Shown here piece after piece: positions 1 through 19,948 of a DNA stretch of 64,000 nucleotides. Positions within the stretch are counted from its first letter, which is position 1. Every line of letters starts with the position of its first letter. Source of the DNA: Candidatus Chloroploca mongolica. Lineage in GTDB: Bacteria > Chloroflexota > Chloroflexia > Chloroflexales > Chloroflexaceae. The position numbers were made by a program, and so were the translations under genes. The notes under the pieces were generated by a model. The model did no database searches. It was not told the DNA's origin and saw only the letters and a list, made by a program, of their open reading frames with translations. The stretch spans positions 103,728-167,727 of the forward strand of contig NZ_SIJK02000002.1 in the NCBI RefSeq assembly GCF_004762035.2. Reading direction: 5' to 3'.

Positions 1-342
1 TGCCCCATCTGTGGCAAGCCCCCCTTTGTGGAGGCCGTCCTGCCCCCCCGGGTTTGCGCCGGCCCAGACCATCATCCAATGGCCGAGAATGATCTCTTCT
101 GCCGACGGTGTGCGCACCCGCCTCTTGTCGCACCAGAGGTTGCCAAGCGGGTCTGTGCTGGCCCAGACCATCACCCAATGGCTGAGGATGATCTCTTCTG
201 CCGACGGTGTGCGCACCCGCTTCTTGTGCCATCAGAGGTTGCCAAGCGGGTCTGTGCCGGCCCAGACCATCACCCAATGGCCGAGGATGATCTCTTCTGC
301 CGACGGTGTGCGCACCCGCCTCTTGTCGCATCAAACATTTAG
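1..342 (+). CDS. C-terminal end of a zinc-ribbon repeat protein (5' end outside window)
   Basis: The reading frame is open from base 1 and stops with TAG at 340-342, so only the last 113 codons are visible. It begins with a CPIC half-ribbon and then carries three copies of a module starting C-A-G-P-D-H-H-P-M and ending F-C-R-R-C, each with two Cys pairs able to bind zinc. The modules repeat every 33 residues (99 bp) from base 55 onward. A related module (C-x-G-P-D-x-H-P-M ... F-C-x-x-C) ends the next gene, which supports this frame over the overlapping one and suggests the two proteins act together. It sits 55 bp before the next gene on the same strand. The function of the full protein cannot be told. 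Confidence 0.8.
   Translation, partial: CPICGKPPFVEAVLPPRVCAGPDHHPMAENDLFCRRCAHPPLVAPEVAKRVCAGPDHHPMAEDDLFCRRCAHPLLVPSEVAKRVCAGPDHHPMAEDDLFCRRCAHPPLVASNI
55..342 (+). repeat. 99-bp tandem repeat encoding zinc-ribbon modules
   Basis: Two full 99-bp units (55-153, 154-252) and a partial third (253-342) are nearly identical in DNA as well as protein. Such near-identity indicates recent unit duplication and makes the array a likely site of copy-number change. Confidence 0.85.
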
Positions 343-397: not shown

Positions 398-3300
398 ATG
401 AATACTCTTGGCTGTCATCACAACCTTCACCGACTTCTATTCGTCCTGCTCGTATGTGGGTTGGGGCTACTTGGACTTCAAGCTTTGCCCGTCCAGGGAC
501 AAGGAGGAGAGGCATTACGCGTTGAGCGTGAGGTCAATCCTCTCACTGGCGAGTTTGGTCAGGTTGAATTCACAGTTACCCTGACTTTGAGTGGTGATAG
601 CGATATTTGTGATGTGCAGATAGTTAGTCAGCCAACCGACATCATCCTTGTGCTTGATCGCTCAGGCAGTATGAATGATGCTGCTGGTGGAGGTATGCGC
701 AGCAGTAAGTTCGAGGTTATGCAGGAAGCAGCCAAGGGTTTTATCAATCGCGTTGATCTCAACCGCGACCGTGTAGGGGTGGTGGCCTTCGATGGGTCAG
801 CCAATACGGTAATCGCTATCTCGAGTGATGCTGCTCAGATCCAACAAGCTATTGATCAGATTGGACTTGGCAGCAGTACCAGGATTGATGCAGGCATCCT
901 GGTCGCAGAGCGTGAGTTTGGCTTGAGCGGGCGAAATGAAGCGACCCAGGTTCTAGTCTTGCTCACAGATGGTCGTCAACCTTCTGCGCCAGTATTGCGT
1001 GCCGCTGAAGCAGCACGCAATACTGGCATCAGAATTATTACGATTGGGCTAGGATCAGACGTTGATGCGAACTTGCTACGAGAAATCGCCTCACAACCCA
1101 GTGACTATTACGCGGCGGCCCAGGCAGGTGATCTCGAGCAGATCTATGCCACGATTGCCGAAGTGGTCATCAGACCGGTCGCTGCTAGCCAGATCGTTGT
1201 CAACCACAACTTCGATCCCACTACGCTGGAGATCATTCCTGATTCGATTGATCCACCTGGAAATGTAAGCGGCGGGACGATCACCTGGGTCGTTCCCAAG
1301 CTGTTGGATGTCCCGATACCATTGAGCTATCGTGTACAACCTCGAAACCCGGGCCAGACTGAAGTAGGTCGGGGCGATCAAGTGACGTATCAACGTTGCG
1401 GCGATCCTAGTAACTCAGTGCCCATCAACTTTGTGCAAGGACTACCACTTAGTTTTCTAGCACCCCCAACACCAACGCTGCGTCCTACCCTGACCCCAGC
1501 GCCCCCCTTGCCTCCAACACCAACGCCAACGACGGGTCAAAAGATTATCCAGGGCAGCCAGAGTTTCTTCTGTGATAGTGCCTGGTGGCCCTGGTTGCTC
1601 GGATTCCTTGTTTTCATTTTCCTGCTTTGGTGGCTCTGGCGAGTTTGGCAAGAGTTACAGAAGGCCCCGCATGAGCAGCGGCTCTGTGCGCTGATTCCGT
1701 GGTTGTTGCTCCCGATCCTCATACTGGCCCTCAACCAGTTACTCGGCGTGGTTGGTGCGTGTGATGCGCGTGAGGCCGTCTACTTCTGGCGGATTGATGA
1801 ACGCGGCGCGAATGGGATTTACACCACTGATCTGCGTGGCCTACGGCCAGCGCAGCCATTGACGGCACTAACTGATCAGGGTTGTATTGGTTGCCATACG
1901 GTCAATTCAAACCAGCATCAAATCGCAGCGATTAAGGGCGGTTTAGGTGGCCCGATTGTCGTTTACAAGCTTGACGGAACACCCGTTCAGGTACCAGATC
2001 AACGTGCTGCCTACCTTAGTTGGTCACCCGACGGATCGAAGTTAGCATTCTCAGACTCGCAATTGAATATCCAGATTCTCGATCTGGTGACGGGTACCAC
2101 TACAGAACTGGAAGGTGCCAATGATCCGGCCGTCGCTGAACTCATGCCAGCCTGGTCACCTGATGGGCAAACCATCGCTTTTGTACGGGGCACAACTACC
2201 ATTAACCAGGCTACCTTTGCGGGGCCGTGCGACATCTATGTTGTAGCAGCGACAGGAGGTATCGCGGTACCCCTCCCTGGAGCGAGCGGGGATGGATTCA
2301 ATTACTATCCCTCATTCTCACCGGATGGGCGCTGGGTTGCCTTTACACGGCATACGAACGGACAAACAACCTACGCCGCACCCGAGGCTGAGATCTTCTT
2401 GATCCCTGCGACAGGTGGATCACCACTGCGTTTAGCTGCAAATGATGCCCCTGGCAAAGTATCAGGAACGCTCAGTAACTCGTGGCCGACCTGGTCGCGT
2501 GATGGGCAGACTATTGCCTTCAACAGCAAGCGTGATGACTCGCATTATGATATTTTTGTTACCACAATTGATACCAATGGTAATTCAGGTGCAGCCATCC
2601 CCCTCCGTAGTGCCGCCCAACCTGGCGTCTTCGAGCATCTGCCCTTCTGGGGTGAACCACCTGCCCGCGACATTACGGCGGAATTGATCGGACTCTGGCC
2701 GTGGCTGATACCAATCTTTCTCGTACTGTTAGCATACTGGCTTTGTCGCTTACGACCGCAGCCACAACCACCAGTCGAGCAGGCAAAAGTACCTCCTCCA
2801 CCAGGAGCTCTGCCACCGCTCCAGTTCAATCCCTTCTGGCAAGTGGCCCCAACCCTGATCATCGGGACGGGAGGCACTGGCCGTATGGTGCTGACCCAAC
2901 TCAAGAAGAGCTTGCGCGATGGTGGCGGTGGGCAATTACCATCGGGTGTGAAGTTTGTGCTCCTTGATACTTCTGAGTTGGAGCAGACCAATATCTTCCG
3001 CGACGCCCAGGGCAAGGCAGTGGGGGTTGAGTTTGCTGGTGTGAGCCTGGAGCAGAACGAAGTATTGCTTATGGGGCAGAACCTCTCAAGTCTGATTGAA
3101 CACACTCGCACCACCATCGAGCAGGCGCTTGATGGTTGGTTTCCCTACAAAGAATACCGCACACTGCCGGTAGGTCAACGCAACCTTGGTTCGGGCACGG
3201 GTGGACGGCGCCCATTGGCCCGTGCTGGTTTGATTGACAAGCTCGTTGGCGATCCTACTACACCAGCAGATGAAGTACCACCCAATGATGCCACCTACCT

Positions 3301-6112
3301 ATGGGATCGGCTCGTAGAGGGTTGTCAGGCAGCTTATGACACCAAGGGGCGGATTGTACGGGTAATTGTAGTCGGCTCGGTAGCAGGCGGTATGAGTGGA
3401 ACAATCACTGATCTGGCGTATCTGGCTCGTCAAGCTGCGCACATGGTTGTGCCGAAAGACGGTACAATTTACATTGAAGGCTACTTCGCCACGCCCGAAG
3501 TCTTTCGCACCGTGGCAGCCAATCCTGATGCGCTGAATATCAATGCAGCGGCCACGCTACGAGAGTTACAGCGCTTCCAACTCAATCAGGGCTTACCCTT
3601 CCCGTTTAGCTACCAGACCGAAGTTCATCCACAGCGAGGTTACCTGAAGGGTGATCTTAGCGTACCCATGTTTGATTACATCACCCTTTTTGGTGGTAGC
3701 GGCGAACCGGAGCGGGGTACAGGTAAGGCTGATGAGCCATGGGCTACCGTGCTTGCCTCTATGGCCGATACAATTGCCCTGCGTCTTGATCGTGCGGTCA
3801 ATGCAGGGGCGCAAGGCGATTATCGCAGCGGCCTGCATGCTCAGGCAACAACAAAGCAGACCAACACCCAGAAGGCAATCGTGGCGGGAACAGGCAGTTA
3901 TGTCGTACGTGTCCCGATTGTCGACATCCAGGAGATAGTCGAAGCCCGCTGGGCACGTAAACTCTTCCATGTCTTCCTGAACGGTTCAGTTGATTCGGAG
4001 CTTCCTTCGTTTAACCCCGACGAGGCAGGGATGGAGGCACCAGTCGCTAACTATGCCAAAGAGTTCATCCTTGGTCAGCACGTTGCGGGTGAGCCGCCTC
4101 ATGGCATGTCTACCGTTGCTTACCTCACTGGAACAGGAAAAGTACGTGCGCGTGATGTTATTGACCTTGCTAACGATGAGGAGGGGCGCCCCTACTATGA
4201 CTATCTTGGCTACGCCCTCGGACTGATCCTTAACGGCGACCAGCAGGGTAGTTTTGCGCGCCGTGCGCCGCGTCTGGGGTATGCCCAGGCCTTTCTGACG
4301 GCTGTTCTTACGTACTTTACTGAGGCGCTGAATGAGGCACGTAATCAGGGGGCTATAGCTCCAGCAGTGGAAGAACGCTCATGGTTCCAACGACTCAACA
4401 TCTGGTTTGGGGGAGGTAAAGCCAACCAGAACGAATGGAATCAGGTGGTGAAACGCCTACAGGCATGGATTGAGGTGACCAAACAGGCGCTGGCTTCTTT
4501 AGAGGCTATGCGCAACATCCTGATTGGTGGCGACCAGCGCCCCAACTCTAATGGCTCGGTCAGCCTCTATCAAGAACTCGCCCAACGCCAGGCAAAAGCC
4601 GAACAACGGCGCGAACAGATGGATCGCATTGCGGTGCGGCGCTACCTCTGGCGGCGTCCGCTTAGCCCAGATCGTGATCCGGCTGAACCTGATAACCAGG
4701 TTGAACTGGTTGACGAATGGTACGAACAGGTTGAACCACGCGTGGCCGAGCATCTTCAGCGCTTCCGATGGAATATTGACCGCAATGGTTCACTAACCCT
4801 TCGCCTCGTGACTTTTGAGAAGGATGCCCAGAAAGCCATCGCACTTGATGCTGCTTCACATAGCATCACCGCAATTGCTGACGAGATCGAGCGGTTAGCG
4901 AAGAGCGTCACCCAAGATCTGGCGAGCAACGTGGCTTTGCACGAACTCCTCTTGACCATGATGCCCAGCAAACTCGCCGATCCAACCGCAGATCTAGTGC
5001 GACTAATGTGGCGTACAGCGTTACCGCACATCCGTTATGCTCAGACACCCAATCAGACTATTGATGGCGAAATGCAAGCTGTGGCGGGCCTCCCACCTCA
5101 GCTTCAAAAGGGCCAAGCACCGCATCCTCTCGAGGTGAGTTTCCAGAATCTTGGAGGCCCACGTACGCTGATTGAAAACACTGAAAATCCGGTGCCAACC
5201 AACGTCATTGAAAGTACCGATAGCATGGCGATCACGCTGCTACGAGAGTATAGTCTGATGCCACTAATTGGCGTACCAGAGTATAAGAGCATCTGGGCAT
5301 ACTACCAACGTAATGCAGGCAGCGCCAACGATACGATGGTGGAATCGCCTTTGTTAGCTACCGTCTATGCTGCCGAACGGGCGAGCTTGGAGTATGAACG
5401 TCGTCTCGAGCGTGGACTAAATCAGGATTTCCGGGCTTTGCATCCAATCATCGTCATGGGTTTGGCCCGCCCAGAGCTTGCAGAACGCTACCTTGCGGCC
5501 TTTACGGCTGGCTGGATTGTACAACGAGCCGGTAACCCGTGGCTACAATGCCCGGACGAGGAATTCAGTCTAGCTCTACGTGGAGGTGAACTCGGCATGG
5601 TCGATTGGCGCGTGGTCGGTCTACTCCGCATAGCCGCAGGTGATCCTGAGGATCAGAGCCTGTTTGACAGCCTGAACGAGCAACTTGGCCGGGCTAATGA
5701 ACAAACGCGCAAAGCATGGCAAGGTTTTGTGCAACAGTTTAAGCCGTCCGGGGTAGCCACGGCTCCCCCAGCGCAACCCCGATTCTGCCTCAATCAGCAT
5801 CCGATGAAGCCAAACGAGAAGTTCTGTGGCCGATGCGGTGCAGTTGCAGTTGGCGAGGGGCTTGTCTGTAACGGCCCGGATCAACATCCGATGAAGCCGA
5901 ATGAGAAGTTCTGTGGTACATGCGGTTTCCCAGCACGGCCCAATCCAACGCTGCCGCAACCTCCCGTGACAGAGCCGATCAAACCCATTGATCTGAGCAA
6001 TGAGCCTGTCTTGGTACAAGATCTGATGGCGGTCGCTGCCTTGGCAGCCTTTAAGCGTGCTGCTCCCGATGAATGGGAGAAACTGGTGATGCAACGTTCA
6101 CGTCGTAGTTAG
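398..6112 (+). CDS. vWA / TolB-propeller / tubulin-like (Tub_2, FtsZ-like) membrane fusion protein
   Basis: A 1,904-residue protein. The start at 398 opens a signal peptide or anchor (hydrophobic residues about 13-30); the frame continues upstream but those codons overlap the preceding gene's repeats. A vWA domain follows with its MIDAS motif DRSGS at 87-91. Two hydrophobic segments lie near 395-415 and 431-450. A TolB/PD40-like propeller spans about 460-750 with repeated SPDG/SRDG blades and a CIGCH c-haem motif at 496-500. A further membrane segment lies near 766-785. A tubulin-like domain then starts with IIGTGGTG (G823-G828) and has the GSVAGGMSG loop at 993-1001. Two zinc ribbons with an HPM core close the protein (1797-1848). 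vWA, propeller and tubulin-like parts thus lie on one chain, probably with the first outside and the last in the cytoplasm. Family precedent: FtsZ-like families linked to vWA and OmpA-type genes have been proposed to remodel membranes. The substrate here is unknown. Confidence 0.85.
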   Translation: MNTLGCHHNLHRLLFVLLVCGLGLLGLQALPVQGQGGEALRVEREVNPLTGEFGQVEFTVTLTLSGDSDICDVQIVSQPTDIILVLDRSGSMNDAAGGGMRSSKFEVMQEAAKGFINRVDLNRDRVGVVAFDGSANTVIAISSDAAQIQQAIDQIGLGSSTRIDAGILVAEREFGLSGRNEATQVLVLLTDGRQPSAPVLRAAEAARNTGIRIITIGLGSDVDANLLREIASQPSDYYAAAQAGDLEQIYATIAEVVIRPVAASQIVVNHNFDPTTLEIIPDSIDPPGNVSGGTITWVVPKLLDVPIPLSYRVQPRNPGQTEVGRGDQVTYQRCGDPSNSVPINFVQGLPLSFLAPPTPTLRPTLTPAPPLPPTPTPTTGQKIIQGSQSFFCDSAWWPWLLGFLVFIFLLWWLWRVWQELQKAPHEQRLCALIPWLLLPILILALNQLLGVVGACDAREAVYFWRIDERGANGIYTTDLRGLRPAQPLTALTDQGCIGCHTVNSNQHQIAAIKGGLGGPIVVYKLDGTPVQVPDQRAAYLSWSPDGSKLAFSDSQLNIQILDLVTGTTTELEGANDPAVAELMPAWSPDGQTIAFVRGTTTINQATFAGPCDIYVVAATGGIAVPLPGASGDGFNYYPSFSPDGRWVAFTRHTNGQTTYAAPEAEIFLIPATGGSPLRLAANDAPGKVSGTLSNSWPTWSRDGQTIAFNSKRDDSHYDIFVTTIDTNGNSGAAIPLRSAAQPGVFEHLPFWGEPPARDITAELIGLWPWLIPIFLVLLAYWLCRLRPQPQPPVEQAKVPPPPGALPPLQFNPFWQVAPTLIIGTGGTGRMVLTQLKKSLRDGGGGQLPSGVKFVLLDTSELEQTNIFRDAQGKAVGVEFAGVSLEQNEVLLMGQNLSSLIEHTRTTIEQALDGWFPYKEYRTLPVGQRNLGSGTGGRRPLARAGLIDKLVGDPTTPADEVPPNDATYLWDRLVEGCQAAYDTKGRIVRVIVVGSVAGGMSGTITDLAYLARQAAHMVVPKDGTIYIEGYFATPEVFRTVAANPDALNINAAATLRELQRFQLNQGLPFPFSYQTEVHPQRGYLKGDLSVPMFDYITLFGGSGEPERGTGKADEPWATVLASMADTIALRLDRAVNAGAQGDYRSGLHAQATTKQTNTQKAIVAGTGSYVVRVPIVDIQEIVEARWARKLFHVFLNGSVDSELPSFNPDEAGMEAPVANYAKEFILGQHVAGEPPHGMSTVAYLTGTGKVRARDVIDLANDEEGRPYYDYLGYALGLILNGDQQGSFARRAPRLGYAQAFLTAVLTYFTEALNEARNQGAIAPAVEERSWFQRLNIWFGGGKANQNEWNQVVKRLQAWIEVTKQALASLEAMRNILIGGDQRPNSNGSVSLYQELAQRQAKAEQRREQMDRIAVRRYLWRRPLSPDRDPAEPDNQVELVDEWYEQVEPRVAEHLQRFRWNIDRNGSLTLRLVTFEKDAQKAIALDAASHSITAIADEIERLAKSVTQDLASNVALHELLLTMMPSKLADPTADLVRLMWRTALPHIRYAQTPNQTIDGEMQAVAGLPPQLQKGQAPHPLEVSFQNLGGPRTLIENTENPVPTNVIESTDSMAITLLREYSLMPLIGVPEYKSIWAYYQRNAGSANDTMVESPLLATVYAAERASLEYERRLERGLNQDFRALHPIIVMGLARPELAERYLAAFTAGWIVQRAGNPWLQCPDEEFSLALRGGELGMVDWRVVGLLRIAAGDPEDQSLFDSLNEQLGRANEQTRKAWQGFVQQFKPSGVATAPPAQPRFCLNQHPMKPNEKFCGRCGAVAVGEGLVCNGPDQHPMKPNEKFCGTCGFPARPNPTLPQPPVTEPIKPIDLSNEPVLVQDLMAVAALAAFKRAAPDEWEKLVMQRSRRS

Positions 6113-6190
6113 CAAAACACATCTGAGACACGGATGGGCGGGGGTGGTACCGCCCATGTCCATCTCCACCTAGTTGAGGGAGGCAGTGCC

Positions 6191-9100
6191 ATGACCATTC
6201 ATACTGTTACTGATCGTGAGACCAAGGTAACATATCAAACAGGGGTAGTTGAATTGGGGGCCGGGGCCACTGCACAGGTATGGCTAGGCACAACGGTCGA
6301 TGATCCTCGCCAAACGGTGGCAATCAAGATTGCCCATCGAGGTATGGCCAAAGAATATCTTGCTGATTTTTGGAGCGAGTTAGATCTTCTGAACTTGTTA
6401 GGCAAATCTGCGGTACATAACTGCGTACCCTGGGCACATAAAGGGTTTTCTGAAGATGATCCGGATCGCGCAATTATTATCATGGAACATATTGGGCGTG
6501 AGTCACTGCTTAGCAAATTAGTTAATCAAGACGATCGAAATTTACCTGAAGAACTTGTCTTAGAAAGTGCCTTCCAATACGCTCAACTTCTTATGGTCAT
6601 CCATGAACTGAGTTACACAATGCGTGGAGACCGTAAAGTTGCTGATTTTTATCTGATTCCGCAAAAAGAAGGGTGGCGCTTGGTAGTACTGGACTGGAAT
6701 CGGGTGCGTATGATTCCTGATAATGCCCCATCACAGAACCGAGCAGAGTTAAAGCGTCAGGATATACGAAGCTTTGGTCAGATCTGGGCAGAGTATGCCC
6801 TTGGGCGTCAGATTGCGCAATTGCCGGCTGTAGATGAAATCAATGACGCAAGATGGGCAAGTATATCACGTGGTTTACGTACAATTTTAAGCCGATCTGT
6901 TCAATCCAGAGCCGGTTGGGGATATCAAAGTGCTAGTGAATTGTTTGAAGATCTCAAATGGTATCGCGGAATTATTCGCATCAAAGAAGAAGATAGCATT
7001 GAAGCACTACTAATGGATGCTAGAAAGATCAGAACAGACATAGAGCAGAGTATATTCTCAGCACCAAATATCAAGTTAGTTAATAAGCTACTCATTATTA
7101 CAGATGTTATACTCTCTAAAGCGCAAGAATTCGATAAAGAAGAAGTATATAAGCTGCAGACATGGGCTGAGCAGCAGGCTTCATCATTGCACCAAGAGAC
7201 AATTGAAGCGATTCAGCAGATCCATCAATGTCTTATGGTGCGTGATAATGAAGGAGCACAACAAATCGTGCAAACTACTTTGCAACGATTTCAGGCTCAA
7301 AGTAGCGATTCACAACAAGCATACCTGCGTCTGCTGCGCTGGTCGCTTGTCACGCATGTAGGCACACTATGTGATGAGCATCGTATTGATGCATACGAAC
7401 AAATACGTAGCTTATCAGACAGTCTTATGCAACTAGAACAAGTTATTTACTCATTTGGACAGCCTGCTGATCAGGTCATGAATAGCATGTTGCGTATTTT
7501 CACACCATTAGAACATACGATAAATACCCTTCCCGATTTTGTGAAAGAAAAGATCCAACCTCTTATGCACGAACTGAATCTGCACATCTCTTTAGCGCAG
7601 GTGCGACAGAAGCGAGCAAGAGGCGAGGATTTTTCGCGTGAACAAGCGCAAGTCATTACATACTGGCACGAGCTTGAAAAAATAAATCGACCTTATGCAG
7701 TCTGCCTGCAGTCAGAAAACGCCGATTTAGATCGGGAAATGAGTATGCAAATGATGCAAAATTGGAGGCAAAAGGAAAATCAAAATAGGCAAGTACAACT
7801 CTCCAATGCTATTCGCGAAGTCTCGAAGGCGCTCAATAGTACAGGTTGCTGGCGAGATCTTACAACTGAAATTCAGGCACTACGCGATCAGTTGTTTCAT
7901 ATAGGTAGTTTAGATGATTATGATCAGACGAGAAATGACATACTATCATGGATTAACGAAATTGCTCTGATTAATGAATGTTTTATTACTAACAAAATAA
8001 GTGGCATAATTGATCGGCATGTAATCACTTCTTCCTCACCGTCAGAGGAGTATGAGTATAAATTGCTTCAACAACGAGTTGCGAAGGCTGCACGGGCGAA
8101 ATTAGAGCAAATACGGCATAAAGTACTCTGGCCTGATGAAATCAAGCAAGCATATGAACTGATTCAGGTATTGCAAGCCTTACCACCCAGTATTGAGCAC
8201 AACGAGAAAGAACTTGAGGTATGGAGACAGGAGCTGCAGGGAATCAACGAGATTCGTGAAGAATTATTCAAAGAACTACGTGAAATTTTTGGTGAAATAG
8301 AAGTAAGTCCTGAATTTTTTCTGACAAATCTTGACAATGTACGAATCGATCAAATTCTTGAAGAGAGTAGAAGCACCTATTTTATGCAGCTTTATGATCG
8401 TCCTGGCATGACGAATCTTGAAGCAAGCTATCAGGTTGAGACATTGATCACGGCTCGACGCTCCGCACGTTTGGTTTACTATCTCAACGATATCGCAGCC
8501 AATCTCATCCAACTTGCGACAGCTCTTCAGGAAGAGAATAAGCGTTTCGAAGAAAGTCTCATACTCAGCAATGATATTCTAAGACAAGCTCAGCGCTTTG
8601 AATTAATGTTACGGCGACCAGAACACACCTTATTAATTGATCGTGCTGAAGCATATAGCCGCCGAATCAAAAGCATTGAAGAGGGACTCAGTAAAGCCAA
8701 ACAAATTACGGATCAGTTTAATGTATTATCACAACAAGTCTTTCAGCATGAAAATGAGATACTCCATACAATTAAAAAACAAAAAAACATTGAAGATCAA
8801 TTTGAGAACATAAGATCTAAAACAGAAGATATGGAAAATAAAATCAAATTATCTGATAGTAGTTTTTCTCAAATAGAAAATTATACGAACAATACGCTAA
8901 TTAAATTACTAAACATTCAAATATCCCATGGTTTTTATGCAATTCGCCAACTAAATCTAGATAAAGAAAACGGCGCACAATCTTTTCTTGAAAATGCAAT
9001 TCAAATATCAAAACAGTTGCCAACTGATCGTGTTAGAGACAATATTATTGAACAACTCAGGGGATCAGTAAACTGGTTAGAAACTATATATCGCAGGCAA

Positions 9101-9328
9101 GACTTATACGAAGTACTGCGTAACTATCTTGAGTCAATCAACCTACGCGATCTTGAAAAAGCCGATGAGGCCTTCAAGCAGTTTCAGGGGTTGACCGTCA
9201 ATGTACCTAGTCTTCGTGAACACTGGCTTATAACTGAACTACAAGACGAATACCGGATGTTGTGTCGCAGTCGCAACCCGGAAGCGCAACAAGGACGTTT
9301 CCTAAAAAGGATTTGGCCACAACAATAA
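6191..9328 (+). CDS. Divergent protein kinase-like protein with long coiled-coil tail
   Basis: A 1,045-residue protein. The ATG at 6191 is chosen because GGGAGG stands just before it. The N-terminal 280 residues look like a protein kinase: a Gly-rich loop (GAGATAQV), VAIK lysine K46, a probable helix-C Glu at E63, then RGDRKVAD in place of HRDxKxxN (D147, K149, D151) and DWN in place of DFG (D168). Key acids remain, but the Asn and the Gly are lost, so activity is uncertain and it may be a pseudokinase. The remaining roughly 750 residues are strongly helical and charged, as in long coiled coils. No membrane segment is seen. It lies between the tubulin-like gene and a helical repeat gene, so a scaffold or regulator of that machine is likely. 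Codons become visibly A+T-rich around 8700-9100. Confidence 0.7.
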   Translation: MTIHTVTDRETKVTYQTGVVELGAGATAQVWLGTTVDDPRQTVAIKIAHRGMAKEYLADFWSELDLLNLLGKSAVHNCVPWAHKGFSEDDPDRAIIIMEHIGRESLLSKLVNQDDRNLPEELVLESAFQYAQLLMVIHELSYTMRGDRKVADFYLIPQKEGWRLVVLDWNRVRMIPDNAPSQNRAELKRQDIRSFGQIWAEYALGRQIAQLPAVDEINDARWASISRGLRTILSRSVQSRAGWGYQSASELFEDLKWYRGIIRIKEEDSIEALLMDARKIRTDIEQSIFSAPNIKLVNKLLIITDVILSKAQEFDKEEVYKLQTWAEQQASSLHQETIEAIQQIHQCLMVRDNEGAQQIVQTTLQRFQAQSSDSQQAYLRLLRWSLVTHVGTLCDEHRIDAYEQIRSLSDSLMQLEQVIYSFGQPADQVMNSMLRIFTPLEHTINTLPDFVKEKIQPLMHELNLHISLAQVRQKRARGEDFSREQAQVITYWHELEKINRPYAVCLQSENADLDREMSMQMMQNWRQKENQNRQVQLSNAIREVSKALNSTGCWRDLTTEIQALRDQLFHIGSLDDYDQTRNDILSWINEIALINECFITNKISGIIDRHVITSSSPSEEYEYKLLQQRVAKAARAKLEQIRHKVLWPDEIKQAYELIQVLQALPPSIEHNEKELEVWRQELQGINEIREELFKELREIFGEIEVSPEFFLTNLDNVRIDQILEESRSTYFMQLYDRPGMTNLEASYQVETLITARRSARLVYYLNDIAANLIQLATALQEENKRFEESLILSNDILRQAQRFELMLRRPEHTLLIDRAEAYSRRIKSIEEGLSKAKQITDQFNVLSQQVFQHENEILHTIKKQKNIEDQFENIRSKTEDMENKIKLSDSSFSQIENYTNNTLIKLLNIQISHGFYAIRQLNLDKENGAQSFLENAIQISKQLPTDRVRDNIIEQLRGSVNWLETIYRRQDLYEVLRNYLESINLRDLEKADEAFKQFQGLTVNVPSLREHWLITELQDEYRMLCRSRNPEAQQGRFLKRIWPQQ

Positions 9329-9370: not shown

Positions 9371-10258
9371 ATGCCACCTAAAGCTGATACACTTCGTGCG
9401 GCCCTGAGATCACGAGACATCGAGCGAGTCTTAACAGTGGGAGAGCGGGTTTTGAACTCTCAGCATACGATGAGTCATCGTGAAAAGAAGGCGTTGCAAC
9501 AGGCGCGTCGAGTCGCACCAATGGTGCAGGCGGTAAGAGTGGCTTTAGCCAAAAATGATGATTTTGCCATTGCGATGGTTTACCATCCCGAACTTCTGCA
9601 ACCTTTCTTTGATCTTCCAGCACCAATGAAAGCACGGGTAGAGCTTGCTCAGCGCCGAGTTGAATTGTGGCGCAAACTCAAAGTTGCCATTCGCTGCAAA
9701 GATGAAGCAGGCATTGCTCGGCTTTATGATCGCGATCTTCTAGCCCAGAGCAGTCTCTTGGATCAAGTCACGTACGCATATTGTGAGGTAATCTGGGCAC
9801 GAACTCAAGCAATCGCAACCCTCCGTGATGCGCTCGCTACTGATAGTGATGAGGTGATTGCCACATGTTATAACCCGGAACTGTTAGACACGAGCACCTT
9901 GCTTCCCACTGCGGATCGTATGCGAGCACGCTTAGCTATTCAGCGCATTGAAGCACTGCAGGTCTTGCACAATGCGCTGAAAGACGATACCTCAATCGAA
10001 GCGATAGCCATAGCATACCTGGAAGTTGTTCGTTGTGGAGCAACAGTACCCGCTGGTAGTAACTGGCTCAAGCTACAAGAGGCACGAATTGCAATCGAGC
10101 GGCGCAACCAATTACGTGAAGCTTTGAAGCATCGTGATGAAAAAACTATTGCGCAACTTGGTTCTATTGTAATAAAAATGACACCAAATTTACTAGACGA
10201 TGCGGAGCAAGTTGAACTTGAGTTGCTTCTACGCTATCCACACCTGTTGTTGGCCTGA
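9371..10258 (+). CDS. Alpha-helical repeat protein
   Basis: A 295-residue soluble protein of unknown family, starting at an ATG after a GGAAAGAG ribosome site. It contains about six degenerate helical repeats of roughly 45 residues. Each opens with an AL(R/K/A)-x-(R/K)-D-type helix (ALRSRD, ALAKND, AIRCKD, ALATDS, ALKDDT, ALKHRD), and several continue to a Y-x-P-E-L-L or Y-x-R-D-L-L turn. Such solenoids usually bind other proteins. It is 42 bp after the kinase-like gene and 25 bp before a membrane coiled-coil gene, so it is probably in the same transcript. An adaptor role is inference only. Confidence 0.7.
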   Translation: MPPKADTLRAALRSRDIERVLTVGERVLNSQHTMSHREKKALQQARRVAPMVQAVRVALAKNDDFAIAMVYHPELLQPFFDLPAPMKARVELAQRRVELWRKLKVAIRCKDEAGIARLYDRDLLAQSSLLDQVTYAYCEVIWARTQAIATLRDALATDSDEVIATCYNPELLDTSTLLPTADRMRARLAIQRIEALQVLHNALKDDTSIEAIAIAYLEVVRCGATVPAGSNWLKLQEARIAIERRNQLREALKHRDEKTIAQLGSIVIKMTPNLLDDAEQVELELLLRYPHLLLA

Positions 10259-10283
10259 ATATGTGATATAAGGTAATATCTCA

Positions 10284-11786
10284 ATGATGCTGGAAGACTT
10301 GAAAAGTTCACTGAATCGGCTGATTATTGATCTGTCGCCCATCGATCGTGATGCACGAGAGCGGCTTGAAGTACTTGGTCAAGGTCTATGGAGCGAGGAT
10401 GATGAGCAGCAGAAACTCGTACATCTTGATCTAAATGCCGTGGTTAGTCCATCTAGTATTGAAGAGAGGGCATATGCCCATTATCAGCGTATGCCCAAAT
10501 GGCTCCACTGGCTCGATTTTTTACGTAACGTATTAATTTTGTTGCCTATTGCAGTTACGTGGCATGCACTCTCAGCCGCCACTTCGAACTATAAAAAGCT
10601 TATCGAAGAACAACCAGATCTTATTACTCAACCATTTCTTCTCTTATGGGAACAAGGATTTGATGGAAACGCAAATCTCTTTAATCCAACTTTTAGTCAA
10701 ATCGCAAGTTTTGATTTTTTCGTTATCAGTATTATTGTCTTGCTTACATTTTTTGTACATTTCCAGCATGATGTACGTGATAGTCAAGCTGCTGAACAAG
10801 CTGGTGTCATCCGCAGACGGGTTGAACAAATCATTTGGCAAATTAATCGTCTTTTGGCACCAGAACGTTTTCGCCAAGCTCAAGCCCATGCGGTGTTAAA
10901 AGTTGCTGAAATCGCTGATAGTTTCCAGATAAATGCGCGTGATCTTTTGAGTCATCTGGCCAGTGAACGAGAAAGACTAGACGATTTGACGAAACGTCGC
11001 GAGGCAGATCTTGCTCAGTTAACAAATTTTAGTTCTAGTCTTGGAGAGGGAACCGAGCGAATTCTCAATTATGGGCGTTTGGTTGATGAGCATACACGTA
11101 AATTCCATATGGTACTTGCTCATTTGAGTAGCAACGTAGAACGCCTAGAACAGTCTCAAGTGCATATAGTTGATGCATTGCGAAGTGTAGAGGGTAGTGC
11201 TGATATCCTACGTCAATCAACGGCAATGACCAATCGTGATCTCGATAGTGCGCTCGATGAGCTTCGAAACTCCACCCTTGAAAATACTGCTTCTCAGCAA
11301 GTTCTTTTGGAAGGGATAAAGAAGATGTCGGAAACTGGTCGCCTAATATCACAGGTAGGCGATCTAGTTCACCAAAGCCTCCAAGACGTTGAGCAATCAA
11401 GACAATCAATGCTTACTGATATGCACCAGGTCTTAGAGAAAGTCACAATAACTGCTAATCAGGTGAGCCAAGCATCTTCTCAACTTAGTGAAGTTGGACG
11501 TCAGATTTATCAATCACAGGAACGAAGTAATGAACTTGCAAACTTGATTAATAATTTTCTCGAACATCAGCACCATTTGATTGCAGAAATACATAGTGTA
11601 ATGAGTGGATTTTCGAGCATAAAACCTTTGCTAAGTGACTTAACAAAATCTGAGCATCCGATAGAGCAAACTTCTTCGCCATCAGAGTTTTTTTCACCAA
11701 GGGGACTTTTGGGACTAGGCATGGTGATAATGATTGCGGTGATCCTTGGAACCATGATCACAACCTTTATACAACAAGCAATATAA
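10284..11786 (+). CDS. Membrane protein with long coiled coil, MotA/ZorA-like topology
   Basis: A 500-residue protein starting at an ATG preceded by AAGG. It has a cytoplasmic N-terminus of about 75 residues, membrane segments near 79-97 and 144-160, a charged Gln-rich coiled coil from about 165 to 460, and a last membrane segment near 472-494. The next gene, 4 bp on, has a MotB-like anchor, so the pair recalls MotA/MotB, ExbB/ExbD or ZorA/ZorB ion-driven complexes in layout. I see no clear MotA/TolQ signature residues, so this rests on topology and neighbour. A chemoreceptor-like coiled-coil sensor is the main alternative. Confidence 0.6.
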   Translation: MMLEDLKSSLNRLIIDLSPIDRDARERLEVLGQGLWSEDDEQQKLVHLDLNAVVSPSSIEERAYAHYQRMPKWLHWLDFLRNVLILLPIAVTWHALSAATSNYKKLIEEQPDLITQPFLLLWEQGFDGNANLFNPTFSQIASFDFFVISIIVLLTFFVHFQHDVRDSQAAEQAGVIRRRVEQIIWQINRLLAPERFRQAQAHAVLKVAEIADSFQINARDLLSHLASERERLDDLTKRREADLAQLTNFSSSLGEGTERILNYGRLVDEHTRKFHMVLAHLSSNVERLEQSQVHIVDALRSVEGSADILRQSTAMTNRDLDSALDELRNSTLENTASQQVLLEGIKKMSETGRLISQVGDLVHQSLQDVEQSRQSMLTDMHQVLEKVTITANQVSQASSQLSEVGRQIYQSQERSNELANLINNFLEHQHHLIAEIHSVMSGFSSIKPLLSDLTKSEHPIEQTSSPSEFFSPRGLLGLGMVIMIAVILGTMITTFIQQAI

Positions 11787-11790
11787 AAGT

Positions 11791-12414
11791 ATGCTTCACC
11801 GACAACGCGGCCTTAGACACAAACATCGTGATACGATGTCATTATCAGGATGGCTCTATGCCGATTTATTGTTAGGTCTGGCGATGCTCTTCTTTGTGTT
11901 CAATACAGTCGGGGTTGAACCACCCGCTGAACTCGATTCACCAAGACCAACCCCGACTGCTAGCCCGACTCTAACTCCGACTCTAACTCCGACTGCTTTT
12001 GCTGAATCTACCAAGACACCGACACCAAGACCAACAAATACACCTGTACCACCAAATGTACTTTCTCCTGAAGCTTTTGAGTTTTCTTTTCGCGTAAATG
12101 CTGATCGGCTACTGCAAGGTGATAAAAGTGAACAGGATCGCGTTCGTCAAGAGATCCGATCCGCACTCAATCAGTACGTTGGTAAACGAAAAGCGGGTTT
12201 CGTTTTGACTTTTGGAACTTCCAATGTTCTTGATGAAGGAACTCGACTTTCTCGTGAAATGAACCGCTTACTCGTTGAGGTACTTCCAGAGGTCTTCGAC
12301 ACTTCAGTTCGGCGTGACTTCCTTCAATTCTCGAATGATCGAGCACTAAGAGGTCAAATTAAAGTAGAGATTTACTTCTTTACAGGTATTCCTGTTTTAC
12401 CGACATCCCCGTAA
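11791..12414 (+). CDS. MotB/OmpA-like single-pass membrane protein
   Basis: A 207-residue protein. Its only membrane segment (about 19-38) reads W-x-Y-A-D-L-L-L-G ... F-F-V-F, which matches the MotB/ExbD-type anchor where an Asp (here D25) carries the proton or sodium ion. A Thr/Pro linker follows (about 50-85). The outer domain of about 120 residues has an OmpA-like look: an FxF strand, a helix of paired charges, and a segment resembling the ordered part of the peptidoglycan-binding fold, though the usual NxxLSxxRA core is only loosely kept (TRLSREMNRLL). It starts 4 bp after the upstream gene. The first ATG has a weak ribosome site, and ATG 11836 is a possible alternative. A partner of the upstream membrane protein is likely. 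Confidence 0.6.
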   Translation: MLHRQRGLRHKHRDTMSLSGWLYADLLLGLAMLFFVFNTVGVEPPAELDSPRPTPTASPTLTPTLTPTAFAESTKTPTPRPTNTPVPPNVLSPEAFEFSFRVNADRLLQGDKSEQDRVRQEIRSALNQYVGKRKAGFVLTFGTSNVLDEGTRLSREMNRLLVEVLPEVFDTSVRRDFLQFSNDRALRGQIKVEIYFFTGIPVLPTSP

Positions 12415-12463: not shown

Positions 12464-13558
12464 ATGCCCCCCCGACGACGTCCTTCGCAAAACCGGTCTT
12501 CGTTACGCTACCAGCCGCGATCGAGCGCGAGGCAGCGCACGAGGTTATACCTTGGCGGGTTGCTGCTGGTTGTGTTGTTGGTGGGTGGTCTGGGTTGGTT
12601 GGGAGCACGTTTGTGGTTGCGTGATGATAACACTGCGCCAAGCACGCTTAGCGTTGCAACTCTCCCAGCTGCGCCGGCGACAACTATTCCTACGATAACG
12701 GCCCGACCTCCTGCAACATCAGTTGCCCTCCCTACACGCACCGCAGATGAACGCACTTCGACGCCAGCCAGTGCTCCTGTGCCCTTCGAGGTGGCCCTGC
12801 TGGAACAGGAAATGCTCAGGGTTATCAATGCGGATCGTCAGGCTAACGGCTTGCCACCAGTTGCCTGGGATGTTACTGCGGCAGAGGTGGGAGCTCTTCA
12901 CGCTGAAGCAATGGCCGATCAGGCCTTTTTTAGCCACTGGAGTCCTGATGGTGTTGGGCCTGATCTGCGTTATAGTCGTGTTGGTGGTCGCGATGCGGTG
13001 ATGGAGAATATCTATACTTTTGCCTATCGCTTCAACGATGGAAGCGCAGCCCCGATTGATGATTTTGCTGCGCTTGTGCGCCAGGCTCAGGCGGCACTCA
13101 TGCAAAGCCCGGGGCATCGGCGCAATATTCTGACGCCAACGCATACGCACGTTGGTGTAGGCTTTGCGTATAATCCAAGCACAGGCAGCTTCTATCTGGC
13201 TCAAGAGTTTCTCGGGCGCTATGTGGTCGTAGATGCACTCCCAGCAATGGCACAGGTAGGTGATACCATTGTGGTAAGCGGGCAACTTTTGCCCGGAGCA
13301 ACTGAACCGCTCGTGAATGTGACTTATGAGCCGTTGCCGTCGCCAATGAGTATTGAGGAACTGAACGCAACCGGCTCCTACCAGCGCGATGCCACGATCT
13401 ACGCATCAAGCCAACCAAGCCTGGCTGAAAATGGAACCTTTCAGGCAACCGTTGCCCTTGACAATGCGGGACGTGCGGGGATGTATAGTGTGCGGGTCTG
13501 GGTACGCGTCGGTGCGGAACAGGTACTGGCGAGTGAGCAGTTTCTATTGGTACGATGA
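12464..13558 (+). CDS. Membrane-anchored CAP (SCP/YkwD-like) domain protein
   Basis: A 364-residue protein. A basic N-terminus (about 1-26) precedes one membrane segment (about 27-50), then a Thr/Pro-rich linker. A CAP domain follows from about 105 to 250: the helix with N-x-x-R near its start, HxEAMA, HWSPDG, ENIY and the SPGHRRNIL motif are all recognisable. The last 110 residues form a beta-rich domain of unknown type. Bacterial CAP proteins of the YkwD type act outside the cell, often near the wall; their reaction is mostly unknown. The gene ends the rightward series and meets the leftward series tail to tail with a 24-bp gap. Confidence 0.8.
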   Translation: MPPRRRPSQNRSSLRYQPRSSARQRTRLYLGGLLLVVLLVGGLGWLGARLWLRDDNTAPSTLSVATLPAAPATTIPTITARPPATSVALPTRTADERTSTPASAPVPFEVALLEQEMLRVINADRQANGLPPVAWDVTAAEVGALHAEAMADQAFFSHWSPDGVGPDLRYSRVGGRDAVMENIYTFAYRFNDGSAAPIDDFAALVRQAQAALMQSPGHRRNILTPTHTHVGVGFAYNPSTGSFYLAQEFLGRYVVVDALPAMAQVGDTIVVSGQLLPGATEPLVNVTYEPLPSPMSIEELNATGSYQRDATIYASSQPSLAENGTFQATVALDNAGRAGMYSVRVWVRVGAEQVLASEQFLLVR

Positions 13559-15717: not shown

Positions 15718-18585
15718 TTACAGTGAACAGCCTGTCTCAACGAGAAAGATAACAGCAAAAATATCAATGTCAGATCTTGAACCATCAAGCTCAAGACGTA
15801 AGACATCATTAGGCTTGACACTAAATAATGTTTTACGTTGATAGATCAGAAATCTACCACGCGTATTCACCGACTGGGCATCAATCTCTTGATCATTAAG
15901 CAAGAGACGAAGCGTCAAGCCCTGGACTAGTTGGCCAACATCGTCACGAAACACGTCAATCAAAATAATTGCATCACTCGCACGCGTACTTGTCCAACTG
16001 AGCTGCCCCTTGTGGAGATAGGTCTCAGGTCGGGCACACGGTTGCGGTACCGCTACATTTTCGTTTGCCTGGGAGAGATCGAATGACGTCTCAGCGACAT
16101 GAACCCACCCAATATAGGGAGGAGTCGTTGTTCCAGCCTGTGGCAAGGCCAGAACCCGTATCCATGGACGTTCACGCGCACGATCAAGCATAAGGAGCGG
16201 CGTTTGCTGAGGGAGAGGAGTAAGGACAGATAAATCAGGACCATAACGTAACTCTGTTGATACAACGGCAACCCCATTTGGATAATCGACGAGCACAGGG
16301 GCCGGGATAGGCGTCGGTTCAGCATCAGGCGCTGAAGTTGCGTTGAATGGCATACCACCGGGGTTTTCCAACGTTGGCGTTGCATCAGGCACTTCTGTGG
16401 TAGGAAGCAAAGGTATGGTGGTTGGTGAGACAACAGCAGAAGGGCTTACGCCAAGATCATCACTCAGGCGAGGCAAGGCAGCCTGAAGCCGGTCAGGGTG
16501 ATTATCATAACACTGCGCAACACTCAGCGCAGCAAGCCCCCGAGCAGGGCCACGCAAACCAGCAAAACTTTGTGTATCCACGGCGCGCACATAACCATTC
16601 GCAGCGAGCGACATATACAAGTTATGGTACTCACGTGATGATTGACGCAAGACAAGAATGCTCCCGATAAGAGTCGCCACGACCAAAAAGGCAGCAAGCG
16701 TAGCTCGTGATGAAACCAGATGTTTGAGCGTGCGTCGCGCGGGAGTCCAAGGATCACGTAAGCGAAGCAGCATGTAACAGAGACCAAGACAGACGAGCAT
16801 GTATACGCCAAGCGCAAGCCAGACACCTAGCAACATGCCTGGACTATAGTAATCTTTGAAATTATCACGCCAGTTCCAACAATAGATAGCGAGATCAATT
16901 GAATATCCACGAATAGCCCAGTGATTGACCGCAAAGATCTCGAGGAAATTAGTTACCTGACGCCAGGCTTCATTGACCGAAAGCCCAGACATCAGCACCT
17001 GAAAAATAATAATTGCCCCAAGCAAGGCTGTCGCAAACTGATTTGATTTCCAAGCCAATGCCGATATCGCGAGACCCAGAGCAAGGGAAGCGAAGCAAGC
17101 AAGCATCAAGGTTATCAAGCCCTCGAAGTTAAACAGGGTGGCAGTTTCGGCAACAATAGGTGGCAGATCCTTTGTAAGTGTTTGCAACCACCCAGGATTT
17201 GCAGCTGGAAAGACACCCTGGACGGTCAAACCTGGCTTATCTTCAAGCATCTGATAAAGAGGTTGCTTGTGAAACAAGACGAGCACAGCAACAACTTGAA
17301 GTGGCACCAAGATGCCTAAAAGCATGAGCGGAAGCCACTTAGAGAAGATATAAGCCCAGATCGAGAGCCCTTTCCTGCGCTCGTGCTGATAAATCCACCA
17401 TTCACTCGTTATTTCCTGGAAACTTGCCAGCAAACCCAGGATCATCACAATGAAACTTACGTAGAAGACCCCGTTGCGTGCATTGGTAAGATCAATATTG
17501 CCCTTATCAACAGGCACAAAAGAATTTGGATGGAGCACAAGCAATAAAAACCCGCCAATCAAACCAAGCATTAACTTTAGGCTTGTAGCAAGGCCATTTG
17601 CATATTGAATGCGTATATATCGTTGGAATAAAATGCGCAACTGAGCCCACCAACGTGGTCGTGGGGGTGTGCGTGATGATGGGGGAAGGGTTAAGGCAGG
17701 AGCTCGTTTGCTCCATTCTTGCTGTGCTGCCTCTACGATGTCCTGTTGTTTGTCGGTACGACTTGCGAACTCATTAAAGATATAGACCCATCGCTTAAAA
17801 ACATCAGTCTCATCGGGGATAGTTGGATTGATATCTCTGGCCTGACGCCAGAGGTTGTCCTGAACCAGATTAGGCCAACCAACACCTCCTTTCGCAATGT
17901 GCCCATTCTCCAAAAAGATGATCCGATCGCAATAACGGAGGGTGTTAAGTGTGTGGGTAATAACAATGATGGTTTGGCACTGCTCATTGGCCCGTTTGCG
18001 CAACAGTTCCATCAATTCATCTTCGGCATTGGGATCGAGATTGCTCGTCGGCTCATCAAGCAACAGAATCGGAGGATTATTGAGTAATTCAGCACAAATA
18101 TTAACTTTTTTGCGCTGACCACTGCTCAGTGTATCTAGAATCCGCGTACGAGCATCTTCTGGAATCTTAAACTCATCGAGCAACTTCTCGATCTGTTCAT
18201 ACAGGTCACGCTTGCGGAGATCGGGACGCCGCAGCTTACCAACATAAAAGAGCGCTTTGCGGATGCTCAAATTTTTATGTAGGACATCGTCTACCGGTAC
18301 ATAGCCAATCCGGGGCAACCAGTATTCAGTAGCACCTTCGGCGTACAATGACTCTTCAGGATTACCATCGCCCTCCTGCAGCACAACATCACCGCGGAAA
18401 GGGCGCTCTCCGCAGATTGCACTAATCAGCGTACTTTTGCCGGCCCCATTTGGTCCAATGATACCGGTAAGTTCACAGGATTTGGCTTTAAATGAGACAT
18501 CAACCAGAGTTATTTTATTACTGCGACGAACCCACAGATTTTTTACCTGCAGAGTAACTTGATCTGGCATAGATCTACCAAGCAT
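15718..18585 (-). CDS. ABCG-like ABC transporter with C-terminal outer domain
   Basis: A 955-residue fusion of ATPase and permease. The N-terminal ATPase has Walker A GPNGAGKST (K50), the signature LSSGQRKK, and Walker B LLLDEPTSNLDP with a following TH switch. This ATPase-first order with an ABC-2 permease is that of ABCG-type exporters. Several membrane segments lie between about 330 and 620, and one more near 645-665. The last 290 residues are probably outside the cell; they hold a Thr/Pro linker and an SH3-like stretch (PNGVAVVSTELRYGP ... GWVHVAE) followed by a beta-rich end. Substrate unknown. A start at the internal ATG five codons on is possible. It lies downstream of a lipoprotein gene and ahead of two small membrane proteins. 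Confidence 0.8.
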   Translation of the reverse strand: MLGRSMPDQVTLQVKNLWVRRSNKITLVDVSFKAKSCELTGIIGPNGAGKSTLISAICGERPFRGDVVLQEGDGNPEESLYAEGATEYWLPRIGYVPVDDVLHKNLSIRKALFYVGKLRRPDLRKRDLYEQIEKLLDEFKIPEDARTRILDTLSSGQRKKVNICAELLNNPPILLLDEPTSNLDPNAEDELMELLRKRANEQCQTIIVITHTLNTLRYCDRIIFLENGHIAKGGVGWPNLVQDNLWRQARDINPTIPDETDVFKRWVYIFNEFASRTDKQQDIVEAAQQEWSKRAPALTLPPSSRTPPRPRWWAQLRILFQRYIRIQYANGLATSLKLMLGLIGGFLLLVLHPNSFVPVDKGNIDLTNARNGVFYVSFIVMILGLLASFQEITSEWWIYQHERRKGLSIWAYIFSKWLPLMLLGILVPLQVVAVLVLFHKQPLYQMLEDKPGLTVQGVFPAANPGWLQTLTKDLPPIVAETATLFNFEGLITLMLACFASLALGLAISALAWKSNQFATALLGAIIIFQVLMSGLSVNEAWRQVTNFLEIFAVNHWAIRGYSIDLAIYCWNWRDNFKDYYSPGMLLGVWLALGVYMLVCLGLCYMLLRLRDPWTPARRTLKHLVSSRATLAAFLVVATLIGSILVLRQSSREYHNLYMSLAANGYVRAVDTQSFAGLRGPARGLAALSVAQCYDNHPDRLQAALPRLSDDLGVSPSAVVSPTTIPLLPTTEVPDATPTLENPGGMPFNATSAPDAEPTPIPAPVLVDYPNGVAVVSTELRYGPDLSVLTPLPQQTPLLMLDRARERPWIRVLALPQAGTTTPPYIGWVHVAETSFDLSQANENVAVPQPCARPETYLHKGQLSWTSTRASDAIILIDVFRDDVGQLVQGLTLRLLLNDQEIDAQSVNTRGRFLIYQRKTLFSVKPNDVLRLELDGSRSDIDIFAVIFLVETGCSL

Positions 18586-19196: not shown

Positions 19197-19396
19197 AGCC
19201 ACCTCCGAGTTGATAGCAGGAACCCTTGCTCCCCTAACTTAGTAACATATTGCCTTCATGAGCGCGTGATAATGGAGGCATCGGCAGCACACCTTTCCTA
19301 TTCTGGTGCCCAGACTACAAGCAAGCGCCAGACTTGCCACTTGGTTACTAAGGAAGAGAGCTTTGCAATCGAGGGGGATGAGCTAAGGAGCCGACT

Positions 19397-19948
19397 ATGT
19401 GGCCTGAGACAGATGATGATCGTGAATTGATCCGTGATCTGGCGCGGACGGTTGTCGGTGAGGTGGCCGCTGAGGAGTTGGCGGGGTTCGAGGTTTTTAT
19501 CGATGATTATTTTGAGAACCTTGAACGGCCTGAGGGTGAAGGGGCAAGTGATGAGGCGCTAGGTTCGGGGTTGCTTGATCCGGCGTTGATTTCGCAGGTG
19601 GTGGCTTATGCAACGGGCGCAGGGTTGATGCTGCTCTTGCAGGCGCTCAGGGATGCGGTGAAGGATGAATTCAAAGAGCTGAGCAAAATGGTTCTCAAGC
19701 GGTTATTGAGACGTACGCCACAACCAGGCGAGTCAATCACCGTGCATTCCAAGCAGGATAATGCGCCTCCGAGCGTTGTTTTGAATATCTCAATTGAAAA
19801 TATGACCGTCGTTACGGAAGTTTCGATGGTGCAACTGGCTGAAACGGTGCAACAGGCGATCCGGCAGTGTGGGGTTCCAGAGGCGCGTGTAGAAGAGATC
19901 GCCGGGGCTGTTGTGCGCCAACTTGTCCAGCCTGCCGATGAAAACTGA
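19397..19948 (+). CDS. Unknown acidic protein preceding M48 peptidase
   Basis: A 183-residue protein with an AAGGAG ribosome site eight bases before its ATG. The acidic N-terminal half contains a short hydrophobic helix near 70-90 (A-T-G-A-G-L-M-L-L-L), followed by a basic patch (KRLLRRTP). The C-terminal half has a strand-rich stretch and a helix with QxxVPEARVEE. No known family. Its stop overlaps the start of the M48 gene by 11 bp, so the two are probably translated together. Confidence 0.65.
   Translation: MWPETDDDRELIRDLARTVVGEVAAEELAGFEVFIDDYFENLERPEGEGASDEALGSGLLDPALISQVVAYATGAGLMLLLQALRDAVKDEFKELSKMVLKRLLRRTPQPGESITVHSKQDNAPPSVVLNISIENMTVVTEVSMVQLAETVQQAIRQCGVPEARVEEIAGAVVRQLVQPADEN

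Follow-up and report, generated by a model that had tools for sequence, protein, structure and literature searches.

The sequence analysed was a window of 64,000 nucleotides from Candidatus Chloroploca mongolica (C83:103728-167727 of the 6.3-Mb genome). A gene on its plus strand (398..6112, ATG start) encodes a protein of 1904 amino acids in which a vWA domain, a beta-propeller and a Tubulin_2 domain are fused in one transmembrane chain. The open reading frame is intact, with 0 ambiguous bases and no N. From the N-terminus, and all on the plus strand, the protein comprises a signal peptide or first TM segment (aa 14-32, 437..493), the vWA domain (aa 81-250, 638..1147), a TM hairpin (aa 395-413 and 436-454, 1580..1759), a TolB-like beta-propeller (1775..2632), a last TM segment (aa 761-779, 2678..2734) and the Tubulin_2 domain (aa 820-1190, 2855..3967). 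The hairpin and the last TM segment were recognised as hydrophobic segments and in the AlphaFold model. The remainder consists of a long helical or coiled-coil and alpha-beta region seen in the AlphaFold model (3968..5767) and two zinc-ribbon-like motifs (5780..5932).

The vWA domain matched the Pfam profile VWA with 92.3 bits (cut-off 23.8), the propeller matched PD40 in 4 stretches with 73.7 bits (cut-off 20.9), and the Tubulin_2 profile (PF13809) gave 107.4 bits, far above the cut-off of 27. Matches of this size for the three domains greatly exceed chance. The MIDAS motif DRSGS (aa 87-91, 656-670, +) has residues invariant in 5 orthologues, and the alignment columns of DxSxS and of the distal Thr and Asp (D64, S66, S68, T138 and D168 of alignment A3) did not vary. 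The zinc ribbons scored 19 bits, under the Pfam cut-off of 25, although two CxxC pairs are present there. A preliminary description of this DNA had listed a vWA domain with MIDAS, membrane segments with a propeller and a further TM segment, a GTP-binding tubulin-like domain and terminal zinc ribbons. The vWA domain, the membrane segments and the propeller were borne out, and the zinc ribbons were recovered as CxxC pairs with a score below threshold. The tubulin-like character of the last domain stood, while its GTP binding became doubtful, with loop T1 intact and the T4 signature lost. We regard the architecture itself as virtually certain.

In the AlphaFold model the outer half consisted of a vWA fold, a beta-sandwich, a helical hairpin, the propeller and the last helix, with a mean pLDDT of 75. 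Its fold matches were vWA adhesins (pilus adhesins), the I domains of integrins and of TEM8/CMG2, and TolB. The propeller resembles TolB, by sequence and by fold, and other PD40 propellers in its fold and repeats; unlike TolB, it is membrane-bound and carries a CxxCH motif, and it reached 58.2 bits with the TolB equivalog TIGR02800, far under the cut-off of 343.15. The cytoplasmic part was modelled with confidence (pTM 0.89). Its top matches among PDB folds were mostly tubulins, TubZ and BtubAB included, at weak values (best E 0.017, target TM about 0.35), and this match, although specific to tubulins, is a weak indication of a tubulin fold in the core. Long helices (model residues 470-615) make up the coiled-coil/helical C-terminal part of the Tubulin_2 protein. 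When PDB sequences were searched with the Tubulin_2 alignment, coiled-coil-type matches and nothing else came up, and a fold search against viral proteins gave no match.

The simplest topology would have an exported N-terminus, the vWA domain outside, the hairpin leading in and back, the propeller outside and, after the outside-to-inside crossing of the last TM segment, the tubulin domain inside. When the Lys and Arg residues flanking the TM segments were summed over ten fusions, about 100 lay on the inside and about 31 on the outside. In the window protein alone this positive-inside signal was weak and nearly neutral (about 8 to 7), and in the Aminicenantes orthologue (L163) the flanking charges were ambiguous at the second TM segment. 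The TM segments and the charges over the ten fusions favour opposite sides of the membrane for vWA and Tubulin_2, the arrangement that the preliminary description had set as a check. To judge from the sequences, it is very likely that the vWA domain and the propeller lie outside and the Tubulin_2 domain inside.

Upstream of the fusion the genes encode, in this order, a PP2C-like membrane protein, a vWA protein, a PP2C, an FHA kinase, a zinc-ribbon vWA protein, a kinase, a 1465-aa coiled-coil protein, a metallophosphoesterase, a 920-aa vWA protein with one C-terminal TM segment and a separate, canonical Tubulin_2 protein. The 3' end of the last gene occupies 1..342 (+) of the window, and its Tubulin_2 domain, likewise on contig C83, starts roughly 4.4 kb ahead of the window. 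This Tubulin_2 protein is soluble and has an intact GTP loop with the T4 signature GGTG[ST]G. At its end the gene has zinc-ribbon repeats, each of about 33 aa and nearly identical to one another, which contain an assembly gap (L003 about 19300-19745; window 1-342). As the gap shifts the frame, gene predictions may wrongly fuse both tubulin genes, and a single 3518-aa frame joining the upstream gene and the fusion was rejected as an artefact of this kind. Two ordinary FtsZ genes are present in the genome besides. The PP2C/vWA/FHA-kinase cluster (L003:1-6406) resembles the kinase-phosphatase-vWA theme in the relevant sections of Kaur et al. 2020 (PMC7159879); the hits that the FHA kinase obtained in PADLOC appear to be generic to kinases.

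Since the classical separate pair of vWA and Tubulin_2 genes is present, the fusion constitutes a second pair on one chain, in the same order. The preliminary description had taken the fusion for a compact version of a known system. This did not hold, because separate vWA-TM and Tubulin_2 genes persist immediately upstream; the fusion is an added second paralogue and not a compact replacement.

Directly downstream of the fusion a kinase-like coiled-coil protein of 1064 aa is encoded (6134..9328, +), and its position is conserved; the order phosphoesterase - vWA-TM - Tubulin_2 - fusion - kinase-like recurs among related fusion loci. A CAP-domain protein found with Pfam is encoded at 12464..13558 (+). 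In the window the CAP domain has a gene to itself within this cluster, and it is fused N-terminally in three orthologues (L118, L119 and L116). The CAP-domain gene showed a weak likeness (34.6 bits) to the NCBIfam divisome-associated lipoprotein DalA. At 15718-18585 (-) an ABC-type ATPase is joined to membrane segments and an extracellular-looking C-terminal region.

A TPR-like 295-aa gene, a 500-aa TM coiled-coil gene and a MotB-like gene (together 9371-12414) form an apparently independent module. The 207-aa product of the last one (11791-12414) has a MotB-like N-terminal segment by reading of the sequence, and it gave no Pfam or PDB match, OmpA included. The 500-aa and MotB-like genes are adjacent in five further Chloroflexota genomes (L175-L179), with a relative of the 295-aa gene in 3/5 and a PP2C-like gene upstream in one case. 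None of the three genes was found at the other fusion loci. The MotB/OmpA-like gene, which had been put forward as part of the system, was therefore rejected as a component. A Zorya-like reading of the 500-aa gene was rejected as well, with weak coiled-coil matches and nothing more.

Relatives were found by a scan with an alignment of canonical Tubulin_2 copies and by profile searches of the loci; a contig search with the whole window protein found no relative. Tubulin_2 was carried by 7/41 close relatives, 16/158 genomes of the class and 45/400 of the phylum, numbers that are lower bounds for second copies because Pfam misses some. It was absent from the two genomes of the same genus. The fusion of an extracellular vWA domain, TM segments and Tubulin_2 was present in ten genomes including the window, nine of them Chloroflexota-type and one Aminicenantes. 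The other carriers are Chloroflexaceae SM1_1_0 (L118), an uncultured Anaerolineae (L119, 513-kb contig), Anaerolineae T2 (L116), Ca. Aquidulcis FI88_2_58_12 (L159, 42% identity over aa 11-1790), Chloroflexi B30_G15 (L161), Aminicenantes CS4-C025 (L163), Ca. Chloroheliaceae L227-5C (L112), G436 (L072) and M5B4 (L102). The last is labelled a cyanobacterium, yet its copies of Tubulin_2 cluster with those from Chloroflexales.

The order vWA-hairpin-propeller-TM-Tubulin_2 was kept in five genomes, while others have vWA-TM-Tubulin_2 alone. As the domain order is kept in independent genomes, the fused protein is not a chimera. Further relatives have a propeller-TM-Tubulin_2 arrangement without vWA (L106) or TM-Tubulin_2 (L103). 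In the orthologue L116:13974-21038 an extra vWA domain lies between the last TM segment and Tubulin_2, on the predicted cytoplasmic side. Two degenerate second Tubulin_2 proteins (L065:11122-14007 and L124:12797-15718) have TM segments after the tubulin domain, which is another way of tethering. The joining of vWA and tubulin in one chain was thus correctly observed in the preliminary description and is more general than claimed there; the interpretation given with it was half right.

Two kinds of tubulin domain were distinguished. Among 69 domains compared, the T4 signature GG[TS]G was kept in 54/55 canonical copies and in 0/14 second copies. With four further second copies it was lost in 17/18, the exception being Sulfidibacter with an intact T4. 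In Sulfidibacter corallicola, for which a complete genome exists, the second copy has the TM segment but no vWA domain. The view of every second copy as degenerate was revised on account of the intact T4, and the loss of GTP binding is no fixed rule. In the fusions T4 was degenerate in 10/10, the window having GSVAGGMSGT (3374..3403, +) with GGMSG for the canonical GGTGSG. The T1 loop (GxGGTG) is intact in the window (IIGTGGTGR, 2858..2884, +) and in several orthologues. Because the fused domain lacks the T4 signature, it is treated here as a degenerate homologue and not as a proven GTP-binding member.

In the tree the window second copy and its orthologues formed one clade (100/99) and the canonical partners another (100/100); with a fifth orthologue added the values were 100/100 and 100/99, respectively. 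The nearest neighbours agreed between the canonical and second-copy sets for most genomes, and the two distance matrices were correlated (Mantel r 0.42, p 0.007, n=13 genomes). Judged by these trees and distances the two Tubulin_2 paralogues are co-inherited, which could also stem from simple linkage. Monophyly of the second copies had weak support (64/84), so that single and multiple fusion events are indistinguishable.

The propeller contains the motif CIGCH (aa 496-500, 1883..1897, +), a predicted c-type heme attachment site. CxxCH occurred at the same place in 6/6 tubulin-linked propellers, both Cys residues and the His being invariant in a five-way alignment, and in 0/4 of the nearest propellers without tubulin that were examined. 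The attachment of c-type heme takes place outside the membrane, and the predicted topology puts CxxCH on the outer side. The genome encodes two cytochrome c assembly proteins (PF01578) and has no ResB of System II cytochrome c maturation, which points to maturation by System I. The conserved motif suggests that the propeller probably carries a covalent heme.

Makarova and Koonin 2010 predicted that FtsZl1, vWA, GTPase and OmpA-type proteins together make up a system for membrane remodelling (PMC2875224), and the preliminary description had referred the window to it. A vWA gene in the operon, by which the FtsZl1 system is recognised, was found here, and the FtsZl1/vWA association stood. The remaining partners did not: Pfam revealed no P-loop GTPase in the neighbour genes that were scanned, and the OmpA-like gene is unrelated. 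As in the FtsZl1 proteins described in that article, Tubulin_2 is followed by a coiled-coil/helical C-terminal region and lies in an operon with vWA genes and kinases. The vWA and FtsZl1 proteins treated there are separate, whereas here a T4-degenerate second FtsZl1 is fused to an extracellular vWA domain and a heme-type propeller. The fusion is an added membrane-bound partner within the FtsZl1/vWA association.

The most likely reading is that of a membrane receptor or anchor which joins outer sensing domains to a pair of tubulin-like partners. It is based on the architecture, conservation, predicted topology, loop loss, gene order and co-inheritance seen in the sequences. Outside, the metal-dependent vWA domain and the propeller with its predicted covalent heme would bind or sense a surface ligand, the redox state or a gas. 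Inside, the tubulin-like domain with its damaged GTP loop would pair with the intact soluble Tubulin_2 protein encoded next door, which would bind GTP and then assemble or switch. On engagement of the outer domains the fused protein would tie its active tubulin-like partner to the membrane or nucleate it there, and the kinases, PP2C phosphatases and vWA proteins encoded nearby would control this step. The binding of heme, the pairing of the two tubulin-like domains, the formation of polymers, the direction in which the signal runs and the result for the cell are all inferred. Physical pairing of the fused domain with the canonical copy is somewhat favoured, while polymer formation by the partners has slightly less than an even chance. 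The complete explanation we consider evenly balanced. The variation of the outer modules, with no vWA domain in L106 and a second, cytoplasmic one in L116, counts against it, as do the weakness of the fold match to tubulins, the intact T4 loop of Sulfidibacter, linkage as another source of the co-inheritance and the nearly neutral charge balance of the window protein.

In integrins, outer vWA and propeller-type domains are coupled through the membrane to the cytoskeleton. The window protein would likewise link such domains across the membrane to a cytoskeletal part, which, unlike that of integrins, is on the same chain and tubulin-like; no homology of the whole proteins is claimed. By this analogy the heme propeller and the vWA domain might gate a pseudo-tubulin in the cytoplasm, which would seed or cap polymers formed by the co-inherited active tubulin-like GTPase, and a redox or surface signal would directly control a bacterial cytoskeleton. 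This extension is speculative and rather doubtful.

An unlikely alternative is a cell-suicide or anti-invader system, in which outer domains and tubulin-like partners would form a threshold switch triggering an effector, a role that has been proposed for GTPase/tubulin/vWA systems of multicellular bacteria. In the relevant sections of Kaur et al. 2020 (PMC7159879), loci from Firmicutes that combine two tubulin genes with two vWA genes, one vWA being extracellular, are placed within GAP1-N2 GTPase systems and interpreted as systems of biological conflict. The occurrence of tandem tubulins together with an extracellular vWA protein is therefore not new, and the kinase, PP2C and stand-alone vWA themes are shared with the present locus; those sections mention neither the fusion nor the CxxCH propeller. 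The patchy distribution, with absence from both same-genus genomes and presence in about one tenth of the class, would suit such a system. At the Ca. Aquidulcis locus, the closest orthologous one, the canonical and the fused tubulin gene are separated by genes for a KAP NTPase with an FGE domain, a SIR2_2 protein and an nSTAND1-WD40 protein, and a DUF4062 gene comes next (L160:11613-18580, L159:18964-19998); these genes keep the conflict reading alive. However, the defining components of those systems, a GAP1 protein and a TRAFAC GTPase, had no Pfam match among the scanned neighbours, the fused gene had no PADLOC match, the defence-type genes were seen in one relative only and the conserved core has no obvious effector.

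It is also quite unlikely that the two tubulin-like proteins form a non-polymerising pair that serves a kinase/phosphatase signalling complex as its GTP-dependent switch or scaffold. The T4 degeneration throughout the fusions, the PP2C, FHA kinase and vWA genes upstream and the conserved kinase-like coiled-coil gene downstream agree with this. Against it, the canonical partner keeps its GTP loops, and tubulin-superfamily proteins characterised by 2010 all form filaments according to the text of PMC2875224, in whose sections on FtsZl1/Tubulin_2 filament formation by this family itself is not demonstrated.

Membrane remodelling or vesicle formation as proposed for FtsZl1, with a tethered tubulin-like polymer bending the membrane, appears improbable. 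The locus does belong to the FtsZl1/vWA association outlined in PMC2875224, and the fused protein could supply the membrane link missing from that proposal; the scanned neighbours nevertheless yielded no P-loop GTPase, the OmpA-like gene is part of another module, and no sequence feature speaks for the generation of curvature. Ordinary domain shuffling or an assembly artefact of no specific function is hardly credible, for although the outer modules differ among relatives and an assembly gap lies in the upstream paralogue, the window gene has no N, the fusion recurs in ten genomes with the full order in five, and the conserved MIDAS, CxxCH and TM pattern contradicts it.

No other report of such a fusion was found in the open-access literature, which leaves most subscription journals outside its scope. 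Since 2010 the FtsZl1 proteins have stood as a prediction that lacks a mechanism. In the published reviews of the 2010 paper (PMC2875224), a referee raised the objection that cytoplasmic FtsZl1 would be unable to form a complex with exported vWA partners; one chain with vWA predicted outside and tubulin inside, in ten genomes, answers this objection. The predicted outer heme would provide a concrete input signal. The question of which protein binds which is turned into a testable pair, an active soluble tubulin and a degenerate membrane-bound one, and a tubulin-family protein serving as a membrane receptor would, as far as the literature search goes, be new to cytoskeleton research.
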